A stretch of DNA of 27,330 bases, from IMG/VR virus record IMGVR_UViG_3300018049_000112, positions 1 to 27,330 of that record; one strand, 5' to 3'. Positions 5,674 to 24,536 of this stretch are shown piece after piece. The notes below the pieces were generated by a model. That model saw only the letters and a program-made list of their open reading frames with translations, was not told the DNA's origin and searched no databases. A program made the position numbers and the translations under genes. Each line of letters opens with the position of its first letter. The first letter of the stretch is position 1. The stretch comes from a virus.

Positions 5674-6189
5674 TTAGCCCTTGCTAGCGGTAACGCCTAG
5701 GTCGGCGTTATAGCGGCCAGTCTGCGCGTAGCTCTTCTCAACGCGGCCACTGACCAGTAGAAACTTCATCTGGCCGATGCGCAGGCCAGGCCAGATCGGA
5801 AGTGGATGGAGGCGGCGCTGATTCCGCAGCTCCATGGTCAACCTGCTGCCAAACCAGCCCGGATCCGCCCAGCCAGCCTCGGCATGGTCCCAGCCCTCGC
5901 GAGCGCGGCTGGACTTAAGCACGAACTGAGCGCCGACGTGATCGGGGAGATTGAAAATCTCCATCGTCTCGGCCAGGAAAAACTCGCCCGGCTGAATCCA
6001 AAACGGATCGTCGGGCGTGTGGCCGTGTAGCTGGATTTTCTGCAGCTCCGAAGTTTGCGCCACCTCGACCATGATTTGGGTGCCCAGCGTCACGTCATAG
6101 CTGGCTGGGTTTAGCTGTTCCTCATTAAACGGCGACAGCAGGGAATTGCGCTGGCATAGCCGGCGAATTTCATGGTCTGGTAGCAGCAC
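5674..6189 (-). CDS. dcd: dCTP deaminase / dUTPase-superfamily protein
   Basis: A 171-residue protein of the Dcd family, which deaminates dCTP to dUTP and in some members also hydrolyses dUTP, feeding dTMP synthesis. Family landmarks are in order: NPASYDVTLG (27-36), IQPGEFFLAET (65-75), the active-site segment LKSSRAREG (91-99) with Ser and Arg, WADPGWFGSRLTMELRN (107-123) containing the likely catalytic Glu120, LPIWPGLRIGQMKF (130-143), and the C-terminal QTGRYNADLG flap (156-165). All expected residues for deamination are present; dUTPase bifunctionality cannot be decided by eye. It is the last gene of the leftward late operon, an unusual place for a nucleotide-pool enzyme. Confidence 0.85.
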   Translation of the reverse strand: MLLPDHEIRRLCQRNSLLSPFNEEQLNPASYDVTLGTQIMVEVAQTSELQKIQLHGHTPDDPFWIQPGEFFLAETMEIFNLPDHVGAQFVLKSSRAREGWDHAEAGWADPGWFGSRLTMELRNQRRLHPLPIWPGLRIGQMKFLLVSGRVEKSYAQTGRYNADLGVTASKG

Positions 6190-6195
6190 TGGCGA

Positions 6196-7275
6196 TTAGT
6201 AATCCCAGCGAACCCTAGCCCTGCTGCTGCGGATGCCTACATGGACAAAGCCCTTACCGGCTCCGTATCCGATTGAGTAGGGCCAGTTTTTGTCGCACCA
6301 ATCCTCGACTTTGTAGATGTCGGCGCCATCGATGTAGAAATCAACCGCACCACAACCGGGTTTGTAGAGGTGTTCACTGTTGCTAGCCCCATTTGCCGCG
6401 GCATTAATCAAAGGCGGTCGATAGCCGGAGGTGATGATGACGGGTTTGCCGCCAAACGCCACGCGCACCCGCTCCAGGAATGCCGCCAGTTCAGCGGCGA
6501 TCTCTAGCTGATCGGCACGAACAAACCGCCGCGCCTCTTGACCGAGCGCAAATTCGCCCAAGGTGATGTGCGGCGTCATCCTGGCCGTAAATGGCGCATC
6601 AATGCTCAGCTTCGCGGTCTGCTGCTGATACTGCGGCCGATGTTTGCCCCAGCATTTGCCTTCAGCCTTGCGCCGCCGCAGCAGGCCAGCCTCGACGTTG
6701 GTGCCAGGGTTGCGGTACAGCTCCAGAGCTGCAGGCACTCCGGCCCAATCTTTTTCTTTCAAGCAGCGGCTGATCGTTTCGAATCCGCCAGAGCCGTAGA
6801 AACCAGAACCGAGGTTGTAGGCGAACGACACCAGAGCCGACTTCTGGTTGTCGTCCATCTCTTTCCAGAACGGCACGCTGGCCCGCAGCTTCTCAGCGAT
6901 GCGGTCCACCTCAAGCCGCAACAACATGTCGGCTTCGATGATCGTGATCCGATCGCCACGCTTGACCGGCACGCCGCCGCTGTAGCGCGTGGTTCCGTAA
7001 CCAATGGTCCAAGGCTCATCGCCGCTTAGCGGGTCCGGGTACGCGCTCAGGTGCACGCCCTCGAACTCTTTAATCAGCGCGATGGCTGCAGCCAAATTGG
7101 CTTGCTTGCCGTCTTGGCTCCAAGTCTGGAACCAGCCGCGATCACGGCGCATTGCCGTTTCGTAGCCGTTGGCCTCTAGGTCGGCCTCTAGTTCTTTAAT
7201 TGCCGCGGCCTGGTGGGGCAGCGCCTTGTAGTAGCGAAACAGCTGCTCAAGACTGATCGGTGCCGGGTTGCTCAT
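6196..7275 (-). CDS. Two-domain endolysin: GH24 lysozyme plus M15 peptidase
   Basis: A 359-residue protein from the ATG at 7275; a TTG at 7365 in frame is open but not favoured. Residues 1-60 form a helical lead (SLEQLFRYYKALPHQAA) with a W-rich end. Residues 62-210 are a T4-type lysozyme that cuts the glycan: Glu72 in EFEG, Asp81 in YPDP and Thr90 in WTIGYG form the expected triad. Residues 233-350 match M15_3 zinc peptidases, which cut the peptide stem: SGYRPP, His302 in SEH, Asp312 in AVDF and His345 in FVHVG are the metal ligands. Two intact activities in one chain is uncommon. No signal peptide is present, so release should need a holin. Confidence 0.87.
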   Translation of the reverse strand: MSNPAPISLEQLFRYYKALPHQAAAIKELEADLEANGYETAMRRDRGWFQTWSQDGKQANLAAAIALIKEFEGVHLSAYPDPLSGDEPWTIGYGTTRYSGGVPVKRGDRITIIEADMLLRLEVDRIAEKLRASVPFWKEMDDNQKSALVSFAYNLGSGFYGSGGFETISRCLKEKDWAGVPAALELYRNPGTNVEAGLLRRRKAEGKCWGKHRPQYQQQTAKLSIDAPFTARMTPHITLGEFALGQEARRFVRADQLEIAAELAAFLERVRVAFGGKPVIITSGYRPPLINAAANGASNSEHLYKPGCGAVDFYIDGADIYKVEDWCDKNWPYSIGYGAGKGFVHVGIRSSRARVRWDY

Positions 7276-7617
7276 CGGTGGCCCAGGGTGCAGATATGCG
7301 CAGCTCATCGCTGCTGATGATTGGTGGCGGCCCCGCAGCAGGTTGGGTTTTATGCCAATCCTCAATCTCGCGATCTAGCCGCGGTTTGAGAGTGGCCCTG
7401 AATTTCCAATCCTGCGCTGCTTTGTGGACGTGGTGCCGCCAATCCTTATCGCCAAAGCGCAGAAGCCAAGTTGTGCCGCCTACTTTTTTTTGCCAATAAC
7501 GTTGAGCACCTTGACCAGCAGCTGGACCCAGCTGTTTTCGCGGATCGGCAGCAGGGTGATGATTTCAGATCCGGCCGCGGCGAGAATTGCGATTGCGGCA
7601 AGGGTAGTGGGGTCCAT
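7247..7617 (-). CDS. Candidate -1 frameshift fusion of the holin-like ORF (123 aa)
   Basis: A -1 slip at the A8 run (7484-7491) joins the first 44 codons of the small ORF starting at 7617 to a second open frame ending at 7247. The second part reads GTTWLLRFGDKDWRHHVHKA, then AQDWKFRATLKPRLDREIED and WHKTQPAAGPPP, a basic, Trp-rich soluble domain with normal codon use. Within that frame I find no ATG, GTG or TTG. Its tail overlaps the endolysin start by 29 bases. The alternative is a real uninterrupted gene with a missing A in the assembly; both interpretations make this stretch coding. No strong downstream stem-loop is seen. Confidence 0.5.
7480..7617 (-). CDS. Small hydrophobic holin-like protein (45 aa)
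   Basis: A 45-residue ORF: MDPTTLAAIAILAAAGSEII, a turn (LLPIRENS), an amphipathic helix (WVQLLVKVLNVIG) and a K-rich end. The AT-rich end of the gene is GGC-A8-G-TAG. The layout (hydrophobic helix, short loop, amphipathic helix, lysine tail) resembles small proteins frequent in cyanophage genomes and could act as a holin or holin accessory next to the endolysin. The hydrophobic stretch is short for a full transmembrane helix, so a membrane role is probable rather than certain. See the frameshift entry for its extended form. Confidence 0.6.
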   Translation of the reverse strand: MDPTTLAAIAILAAAGSEIITLLPIRENSWVQLLVKVLNVIGKKK

Positions 7618-7641: not shown

Positions 7642-7842
7642 TTAGCCCTGTTGTTCAAGGCGACGCAACCGGCGTTCGTGATCGTCGAGACGTTCTTTGT
7701 GATCACTTCGCAATGCCGTGATTTGCTCAAGGATTAGCGCCACCCGCGTGTCCATCACGCTGGCACGTTTATCAATGCGCCAAAGCGCACCAACGCCAGC
7801 AACTATTGCGGCCGTGATCAATGGCGTGATAAACGGATCCAC
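7642..7842 (-). CDS. Single-TM coiled-coil protein, lysis cassette (holin/spanin-like)
   Basis: A 66-residue protein. Residues 5-21 (ITPLITAAIVAGVGALW) form one transmembrane helix; residues 25-64 (RASVMDTRVALILEQITALRSDH, then KERLDDHERRLRRLEQQ) form a charged coiled coil. One N-terminal helix with a C-terminal coiled coil is the topology of inner-membrane spanins; the reversed order occurs in XhlA-type hemolysin-like holins. It lies two genes upstream of the endolysin. No lipobox partner (outer-membrane spanin) is seen. Confidence 0.65.
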   Translation of the reverse strand: MDPFITPLITAAIVAGVGALWRIDKRASVMDTRVALILEQITALRSDHKERLDDHERRLRRLEQQG

Positions 7843-7860: not shown

Positions 7861-8004
7861 TCAGTCTATCGAAGGTGGGCGCCATGGGTCCCTGCGGCCC
7901 TGCAGGATTACAACGGCTCGGCGGTAGTAATCGCAGTCGGTTTTCCCAGCTTGTTCTAATACTTCCTTAATCTTTCGCCAGTTTTCTAGCTTGTCGGGGT
8001 CCAT
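7861..8004 (-). CDS. Small hypothetical protein (47 aa)
   Basis: The ATG at 8004 follows the stop of the upstream gene directly (TAA then ATG). The protein is DPDKLENWRKIKEVLEQAGK, then TDCDYYRRAVVILQGRRDPW and a short proline-rich end. The pattern 'L-x-NW-x-KI-x-x-x-LE-x-AGKTD-x-x-x-YRRA-x-x-I' is one I recall from small cyanophage proteins of unknown function, but that recall is not a database match. Mostly helical, basic, soluble. Confidence 0.6.
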   Translation of the reverse strand: MDPDKLENWRKIKEVLEQAGKTDCDYYRRAVVILQGRRDPWRPPSID

Positions 8005-8286
8005 TTATCGGGCGCATACTGTCCGCTGTCTAAGCCGCTCAACCTCTGCCTGCAATACCTGAATTGCGGAATCCTGTTTAACATCGTCCGGCAACGCACC
8101 CATTTCGCCACGCGGCCAGAGAATACGAAACTCGGTGTTCTGCTCCACGTTCATATTCAGCTTCATCAGCTCATGCTCGATGTGAAACATCTTGGAGCTG
8201 ACGCCGCTAGCCCACCAGACCGCAATACCAGCCTGCACGGCGATAGCCAAGATGCCGCCGATTAGCTCAACATTTAGGCGATCCAC
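8005..8286 (-). CDS. Single-TM coiled-coil protein, second lysis-cassette candidate
   Basis: A 93-residue protein from GTG (8284-8286). Residues 6-29 (VELIGGILAIAVQAGIAVWWASG) form one transmembrane helix. Residues 33-55 (MFHIEHELMKLNMNVEQNTEF) and 72-90 (DSAIQVLQAEVERLRQR) are helical and heptad-like around a short W/P-containing loop (ILWPRGEMGALP). The topology repeats that of the gene at 7642. It may be a spanin, a holin regulator, or a membrane anchor for a structural part. No signal-peptide cleavage site is clear. Confidence 0.65.
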   Translation of the reverse strand: MDRLNVELIGGILAIAVQAGIAVWWASGVSSKMFHIEHELMKLNMNVEQNTEFRILWPRGEMGALPDDVKQDSAIQVLQAEVERLRQRTVCAR

Positions 8287-23868: not shown

Positions 23869-24536
23869 CTAGCTGGTTTTGTTGAGCTTGCTCATCGCTG
23901 CCGCTTCCATGACCTGCAGGCCCTCCAGTAGCTCGCGCGGCTGTTCTACTGAATACAGCTTAAACAGCCATTCGGCCGCTGTATAGTCCAAACCCGTCAA
24001 TCCACCCGTGCTTGTGCGCCATTGCGTCTGGAGCCGCAAGAACATTTGCACGATGTCCCAGTTGCTCTCCCAAACCTGAAAGTTTTCTTCGGGTGGGGGT
24101 GGCAAGTCTGGGGTCTCAATACCCATGGCCGCGGCATCGTCGGCGACCTCATCAATGACGCCGCCGGTTGCCCAATGCTCTGCGGCCTCGGCTAGTTTTT
24201 TCGCTTGGCTCCGTTCAGGCTGTCGAAATATGCCATCACGATGGCGCCAGCCAGCATCGGCACCTCAAGCAGCTCGGCCATGCTCTTCTGACTAAAGGGC
24301 ACCTCTTTGCCCTCGTCGTCAGTGACGCCAGACCAGCCCACCAGCACCTCAGAGGCCACCTCTAAGGCGCTCAAATCATCATTGCCGATGCCGTCGGTGA
24401 TCTCTTGGATGCGAGTTTGAGACAAATGCTTAAATTCGCAGTCAAAAGTCTGGCGCTCATGCCGGCCGCCATCGACGGGAACGTCGAAATTGACGGGCCA
24501 GGAATAAGAGCCAGACCGTTTTAATACAAACGCCAA
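23869..24536 (-). CDS. GT: Tail assembly chaperone G-T, product of -1 frameshift
   Basis: A 222-residue fusion made when ribosomes slip back one base at A AAA AAC (24195-24201) just before the G stop. The second part continues LAEAAEHWATGGVIDEVADD and then DUF1799: DLPPPPEENFQVWESNWDIV, GLTGLDYTAAEWLFKLYSVE, GLQVMEAAAMSKLNK. In lambda the same slip makes gpGT, which loads tail-tube subunits onto the tape measure. An ATG at 24126 could start the DUF1799 part alone, but the frame is open and in phase back to the slip site, so fusion is the expected form. Confidence 0.85.
24192..24536 (-). CDS. G: Tail assembly chaperone G
   Basis: A 114-residue protein ending at TAG directly after the slip site. 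It has the usual alternation of a beta-start (FVLKRSGSYSWPVNFDVPVD), an acidic-aromatic centre (ERQTFDCEFKHLSQTRIQEI), WSGVTDDEGKEVPFSQ and a final helix (LAGAIVMAYFDSLNG). It lies between tail tube and tape measure, where lambda G lies. Non-shifted product should be the majority. Confidence 0.83.
   Translation of the reverse strand: MAFVLKRSGSYSWPVNFDVPVDGGRHERQTFDCEFKHLSQTRIQEITDGIGNDDLSALEVASEVLVGWSGVTDDEGKEVPFSQKSMAELLEVPMLAGAIVMAYFDSLNGAKRKN
24195..24201 (-). promoter_or_regulatory. Programmed -1 frameshift site A AAA AAC
   Basis: Minus-strand reading in the G frame is CGA AAA AAC TAG. The heptamer A AAA AAC permits both tRNAs to re-pair one base back. After the slip the next codon is CTA and the frame stays open for 109 codons, to 23869. 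Placement directly before the stop of G and after the tail tube gene is the lambda arrangement. Confidence 0.85.

Follow-up and report, generated by a model that had tools for sequence, protein, structure and literature searches.

We propose that a small gene next to the endolysin gene of this phage, coding for a predicted membrane protein, is decoded by conserved programmed -1 ribosomal frameshifting, and that this phage is one of hundreds sharing the same layout of a slip site followed by an extension. The window is the 27,330-nt stretch of IMG/VR virus record IMGVR_UViG_3300018049_000112, and all positions are numbered within it. We put the probability of this reading at about 0.92 to 0.95; there are no protein or reporter data, and that the slip takes place on the ribosome is inferred. 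The reading is supported because the -1 phase of the extension is conserved, a slippery heptamer is present, the extension is under constraint, and the heptamer is usually absent where the extension is absent. According to this proposal most ribosomes would translate 45 codons and terminate at the TAG, releasing a short membrane protein that is holin-like, while some would slip back by one base on A_AAA_AAG with the P-site and A-site tRNA-Lys re-pairing in the -1 frame. The slipped ribosomes would bypass the TAG and make a 123-residue form with a helix, a proline linker and a beta-hairpin domain.

The features of the window that bear on this proposal are given in Table 1. The first-pass annotation of this DNA had described an ORF of 45 codons that ends GGC AAA AAA AAG TAG with a run of eight A, followed by an open -1 frame that has no ATG, GTG or TTG and runs to a TGA inside the start of the endolysin gene. 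Both descriptions were confirmed: the A run lies at 7491-7484 on the minus strand, the -1 frame stays open back through the slip site, and ATG, GTG and TTG are absent from it (identical contigs L006-L008). The TGA of the extension is 29 bases within the endolysin gene. In several relatives, as in most of the sampled loci, a gene for a protein with a membrane segment and a coiled coil is directly upstream of the frameshift gene. In the window, a 47-codon ORF (beginning MDPDKLENWRKIKEV) is located at 7861-8004 on the minus strand between two such genes, and a dCTP deaminase-like gene with a GTG start (5674-6189, minus strand) is directly 3' of the endolysin gene.

Table 1. Coordinates of the frameshift gene, its neighbors and the tail-chaperone slip site in the window
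Feature	Position	Strand	Basis or remark
0-frame ORF, 45 codons, product MDPTTLAAIAILAAAGSEIITLLPIRENSWVQLLVKVLNVIGKKK	7480-7617	-	TAG stop at 7482-7480
Slippery heptamer A_AAA_AAG, in frame, abutting the 0-frame TAG	7483-7489	-	Within the eight-A run
-1 frame extension, 78 residues plus TGA	7247-7483	-	Sequence and relatives
Predicted frameshift fusion, 123 residues (45 + 78)	7247-7617	-	Sequence and the -1 phase conserved in 235/235 relatives
Endolysin, phage lysozyme plus peptidase M15	6196-7275	-	ATG at 7275-7273, within the final codons of the extension
Small gene upstream with a GTG start; 66-residue product with a membrane segment and a coiled coil	7642-7842	-	
Small gene farther upstream; 93-residue product with a membrane segment and a coiled coil	8005-8286	-	
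Tail-chaperone slip site A_AAA_AAC (24201-24195), abutting TAG (24194-24192)	24192-24201	-	Sequence

Homologues of the extension were found in S-CBS1 and KBS-S-2A, weakly in S-CBS3, and in hundreds of viral contigs. Loci were gathered with the extension and with the membrane protein as queries, and 274 distinct membrane-protein genes were compared. The extension domain is present in 235 of them and in all 235 it is in the -1 frame. The earlier interpretation of the locus as a -1 frameshift, which one continuous frame in relatives, or a second part with a start codon of its own, would have contradicted, is supported by this comparison because none of the 235 has such a frame and no start codon past the slip is conserved. 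A heptamer whose second triplet is AAA or TTT lies no more than 4 codons from the stop in 234 of these 235 domain carriers. Among the 633 other long ORFs of the fetched loci, only 4 have a shifty heptamer in their last four codons, and a heptamer this near to a stop is thus rare by chance. These sequences are related by descent and therefore neither the counts nor the Fisher value given below represent independent events. In 11 further relatives, namely, the podoviruses S-B28, WH11-B, and 7B11-B with similar contigs, S-EIVl, and contig L308, the extension is too divergent for the profile and the slip arrangement is the same. The isolates with this layout are S-CBS1, S-CBS3, KBS-S-2A, S-B28, WH11-B, 7B11-B, and S-EIVl. 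Among the 245 extended sequences that have a heptamer it is A_AAA_AAG in 159, C_CCA_AAG in 84, and C_CCA_AAA and G_GGA_AAG in one each. All heptamers have been measured in E. coli, where C_CCA_AAG, G_GGA_AAG, and A_AAA_AAG were the most efficient ones with stimulators (PMC4066793).

The run is eight A long in the window and its close relatives. In 133 of the 159 A-type sites it consists of only six A, and the C-type and G-type sites have no long A run. This distribution bears on two other explanations. It had been suggested earlier that an A is missing, so that the true gene would be one 123-codon frame with nine A and the window is short by one base. An eight-A homopolymer is prone to assembly error and one extra A would join the frames. 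This explanation fails because relatives with six A, and those with CCCAAAG or GGGAAAG that lack a long run, have the same -1 phase, and independently sequenced isolates agree. From the relatives it is refuted for the family, and for the window we give it next to no credence. The layout inferred from the window was real but the eight A are not required, six being the commonest number among the relatives. The other explanation is that slippage of the polymerase on the A run yields a mixed mRNA pool from which both products are made. The eight A of the window and its close relatives are a plausible length for this, and within the eight-A clade to which the window belongs some contribution from transcriptional slippage is possible. 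It cannot explain the family, because the run has six A in most A-type relatives and because relatives of the C and G types, without such a run, retain the same -1 extension. We consider it very improbable.

Relatives without the extension usually lack the heptamer too. After clustering at 85%, the heptamer was found in 107 of 107 extended clusters and in 3 of 20 unextended ones, the other 17 being without it (107:0 versus 3:17, Fisher 2e-18). In the FPKR-type unextended genes, which run straight into the endolysin gene, CCC or CCT before AAG breaks the heptamer while the residues remain the same. There is no heptamer in the unextended genes of S-CBS4, P60, S-CBP1, S-CBP3, and S-CBP4; the last four and DSL-LC07 (L190-L194, all without a heptamer) have a C-terminal tail that is longer and charged, in the same frame. 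The exceptions are few. L116 (near 1635) has the domain and no heptamer, its gene ending TTC CCG AAG AAG TGA with a GTG that overlaps the stop in the -1 frame. Conversely, in L146, L147, L168, L309, and L316 there is a CCCAAAG three codons ahead of the stop and no extension domain, and here the CCCAAAG is possibly a remnant or has another use. The resolution of the short-protein tree was too poor to count losses of the extension. S-LBS1, considered as a relative with a separate second gene, was rejected because the proteins are unrelated. An unannotated small ORF in L188 (MH572431.1, Microviridae SD_MC_44), at about 2001-2140 between the scaffolding and replication genes, is similar to the membrane protein (46% across 47 residues, E 6e-3); it is possible that it codes for a microvirus lysis protein.

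The codons of the slip site are frozen. In the C group the Phe codon is TTC in 83 of 83 cases, a single ATC replacing it, and CCA and AAG are found in 84 of 84 sequences each; a few positions upstream, the codons for Lys, Leu, Val, and Ala are free to vary, and in the gene body upstream CCA accounts for only 14 of 98 Pro codons. In the A group, codons for Ala, Gly, Arg, Pro, and Lys all occur before the two Lys codons, and their third base is always A, as the heptamer demands. Only sequences with a heptamer were admitted to these codon tables, but the freezing is not an effect of this selection because all but one of the extended sequences have a heptamer. Judged by sequence alone, synonymous choice at the slip codons is conserved beyond the amino-acid need.

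The extension is also constrained as a -1 reading frame. Counted over the whole -1 frame, substitutions at the three codon positions are 5216:3092:12743; for the first six codons past the slip they are 298:197:975. In both cases the excess is at the third position. The linker right after the slip, upstream of most candidate starts, is therefore read in the -1 frame. This matters for the possibility that the second part is a separate gene, on which translation reinitiates at a weak or non-standard start codon just past the stop. A GTG overlaps the stop in L043, L047, and L059, as it does in L116 where the heptamer is missing, some relatives have an early TTG, and in the public annotations S-CBS1 gp23 begins at a TTG and S-CBS3 gp22 at an internal ATG. 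The lack of a start codon noted earlier in the window's extension does not hold throughout the family, since many relatives have a TTG or GTG soon after the slip, but none is conserved. In the stretch tested, ATG, GTG and TTG are all absent from 56 of 118 distinct sequences. The close pair L059 and L060 differ by GTG versus GTA and both retain the heptamer. Moreover, the constraint in the -1 frame covers the linker codons preceding a conserved Trp, which counts against a separate start, and reinitiation leaves the frozen heptamer unexplained. We judge it to be highly improbable, marginally more so than slippage during transcription.

It can also be argued that frameshifting serves mainly to couple translation to the downstream endolysin gene and that the sequence of the extension is secondary. 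At 110 of 116 scored loci the end of the extension lies 10-39 bases within the endolysin gene, an overlap that most of the siphovirus-type relatives have. However, residues of the extension are conserved across distant relatives and the next gene in the podoviruses is not an endolysin gene. This explanation is unlikely, although it deserves more weight than the three discussed above.

A stimulator, either a Shine-Dalgarno-like sequence upstream or a structure downstream, is common in -1 frameshifting but is not obligatory. Enrichment of Shine-Dalgarno-like sequences upstream of the heptamer was not found in the relatives, and the downstream sequence of the window folds no better than shuffled sequences (z -0.32). 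The first 45 downstream bases are 1.6 kcal/mol more stable than synonymous controls, but this is not specific to the slip site because a stretch 50 bases further on is likewise more stable. Clade alignments did not reveal a conserved downstream fold, except for a weak signal in four podovirus sequences. Since neither a downstream structure nor a Shine-Dalgarno-like signal has been shown, the efficiency of the slip may be low, a few per cent or less. In E. coli, the efficiency of frameshifting is about 0.3% without stimulators and reaches as much as 3.7% when the 3' context is optimal (PMC4066793). The E. coli dnaX gene, with A_AAA_AAG, and the IS3-family belong to the same V_VVA_AAG motif class but use a Shine-Dalgarno-like and/or structural stimulator (PMC4066793), none of which was detected at the cyanophage site.

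The 45-residue protein is predicted to have a membrane helix at residues 3-22, with a mean hydropathy of about 2 over 19 residues, and a second helix at 29-44. The 0-frame product matched only phrog_22542, of unknown function, among the PHROGs and had no match in Pfam or NCBIfam; no known holin family in these three databases was matched. The predicted structure of the extension (mean confidence 75, pTM 0.39) consists of a long helix and, after a proline-rich linker, a short beta hairpin that ends in a conserved I-x-A-P-W. No credible relative of the extension was found in domain databases, by PDB sequence search or by BFVD fold search, and matches to macrolide phosphotransferases at E 0.015 were judged to be due to chance.

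In the siphovirus-type relatives the endolysin gene follows the frameshift gene, and in the podoviruses S-B28, WH11-B, and 7B11-B the gene is between those for the tail fibre and the small terminase. The holin gene 17.5 of T7 is located between the tail fibre and small terminase genes. It thus shares the gene slot with these podoviruses, but no sequence relation to the frameshift gene has been shown, and to our knowledge 17.5 is not frameshifted. Holin activity of the short form is inferred only from the gene position, small size and predicted membrane helix, and we consider a holin-like role somewhat more probable than not. Positively charged residues follow the membrane helix, which suggests that the extension domain is cytoplasmic. 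Because of this a spanin-like role of the extension, for which an inner-membrane protein would need a periplasmic domain and a lipoprotein partner in the outer membrane, is unlikely, and we infer that a modulator role is more likely. The long form might modulate the short form or recruit a lysis partner, and its role as a lysis modulator is at present only a tentative inference. In lambda, the S105/S107 holin and antiholin arise from two start codons that vary the N-terminus. There too a single short lysis gene has two membrane proteins as products, with most of their sequence in common, but in the cyanophage gene it is the C-terminus that gains a whole domain, by frameshifting, and inhibition has not been shown.

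The window contains a second frameshift gene, in which slip site and stop are arranged in the same manner. Only 2 of the 24 window genes scanned have a shifty heptamer beside the stop, the holin-like gene and the tail chaperone gene. The latter has its 0-frame ORF at 24192-24536 and its slip site and -1 frame within 24207-23869, both on the minus strand; a 108-codon -1 frame after its TAG ends just before the gene for a tape-measure protein of 770 residues, and both halves match tail PHROGs. Since the window has this separate chaperone gene before the tape measure, the holin-like gene was ruled out as the tail assembly chaperone. The tail assembly chaperone G/GT of tailed phages (Xu, Hendrix and Duda 2004, as cited in PMC3556154) has a heptamer X_XXY_YYZ near the stop that likewise gives a short and an extended protein. 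G/GT is, however, a tail protein encoded before the tape measure, while the holin-like gene codes for a small membrane protein beside the endolysin, of a different family and role. Frameshifting is also tied to expression of the lysis gene of MS2 (PMC10885494), but there it leads ribosomes to a separate overlapping gene and there is no extended lysis protein. In the open literature, closed journals being outside the search, frameshifting was found in tail and capsid genes and no case yielded an extended holin or an extended product of a phage lysis gene.

The tailed-phage genes for which programmed frameshifting is known are mainly tail genes and some capsid genes, and what we describe here is a conserved case in the lysis region that spans siphovirus-type and podovirus-type cyanobacterial phages. 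In the public annotations that we inspected the second product is omitted, as in KBS-S-2A where there is a gap, or begun at a downstream codon, as in S-CBS1 and S-CBS3. It is conceivable, although we regard it as speculative and less likely than a modulator role as such, that the ratio of short to extended holin acts as a clock for lysis timing in a cyanophage group that is widespread, the extended form being the brake. The gene offers a test of the tuning of lysis by decoding, for which the relatives with neither extension nor heptamer are natural controls.
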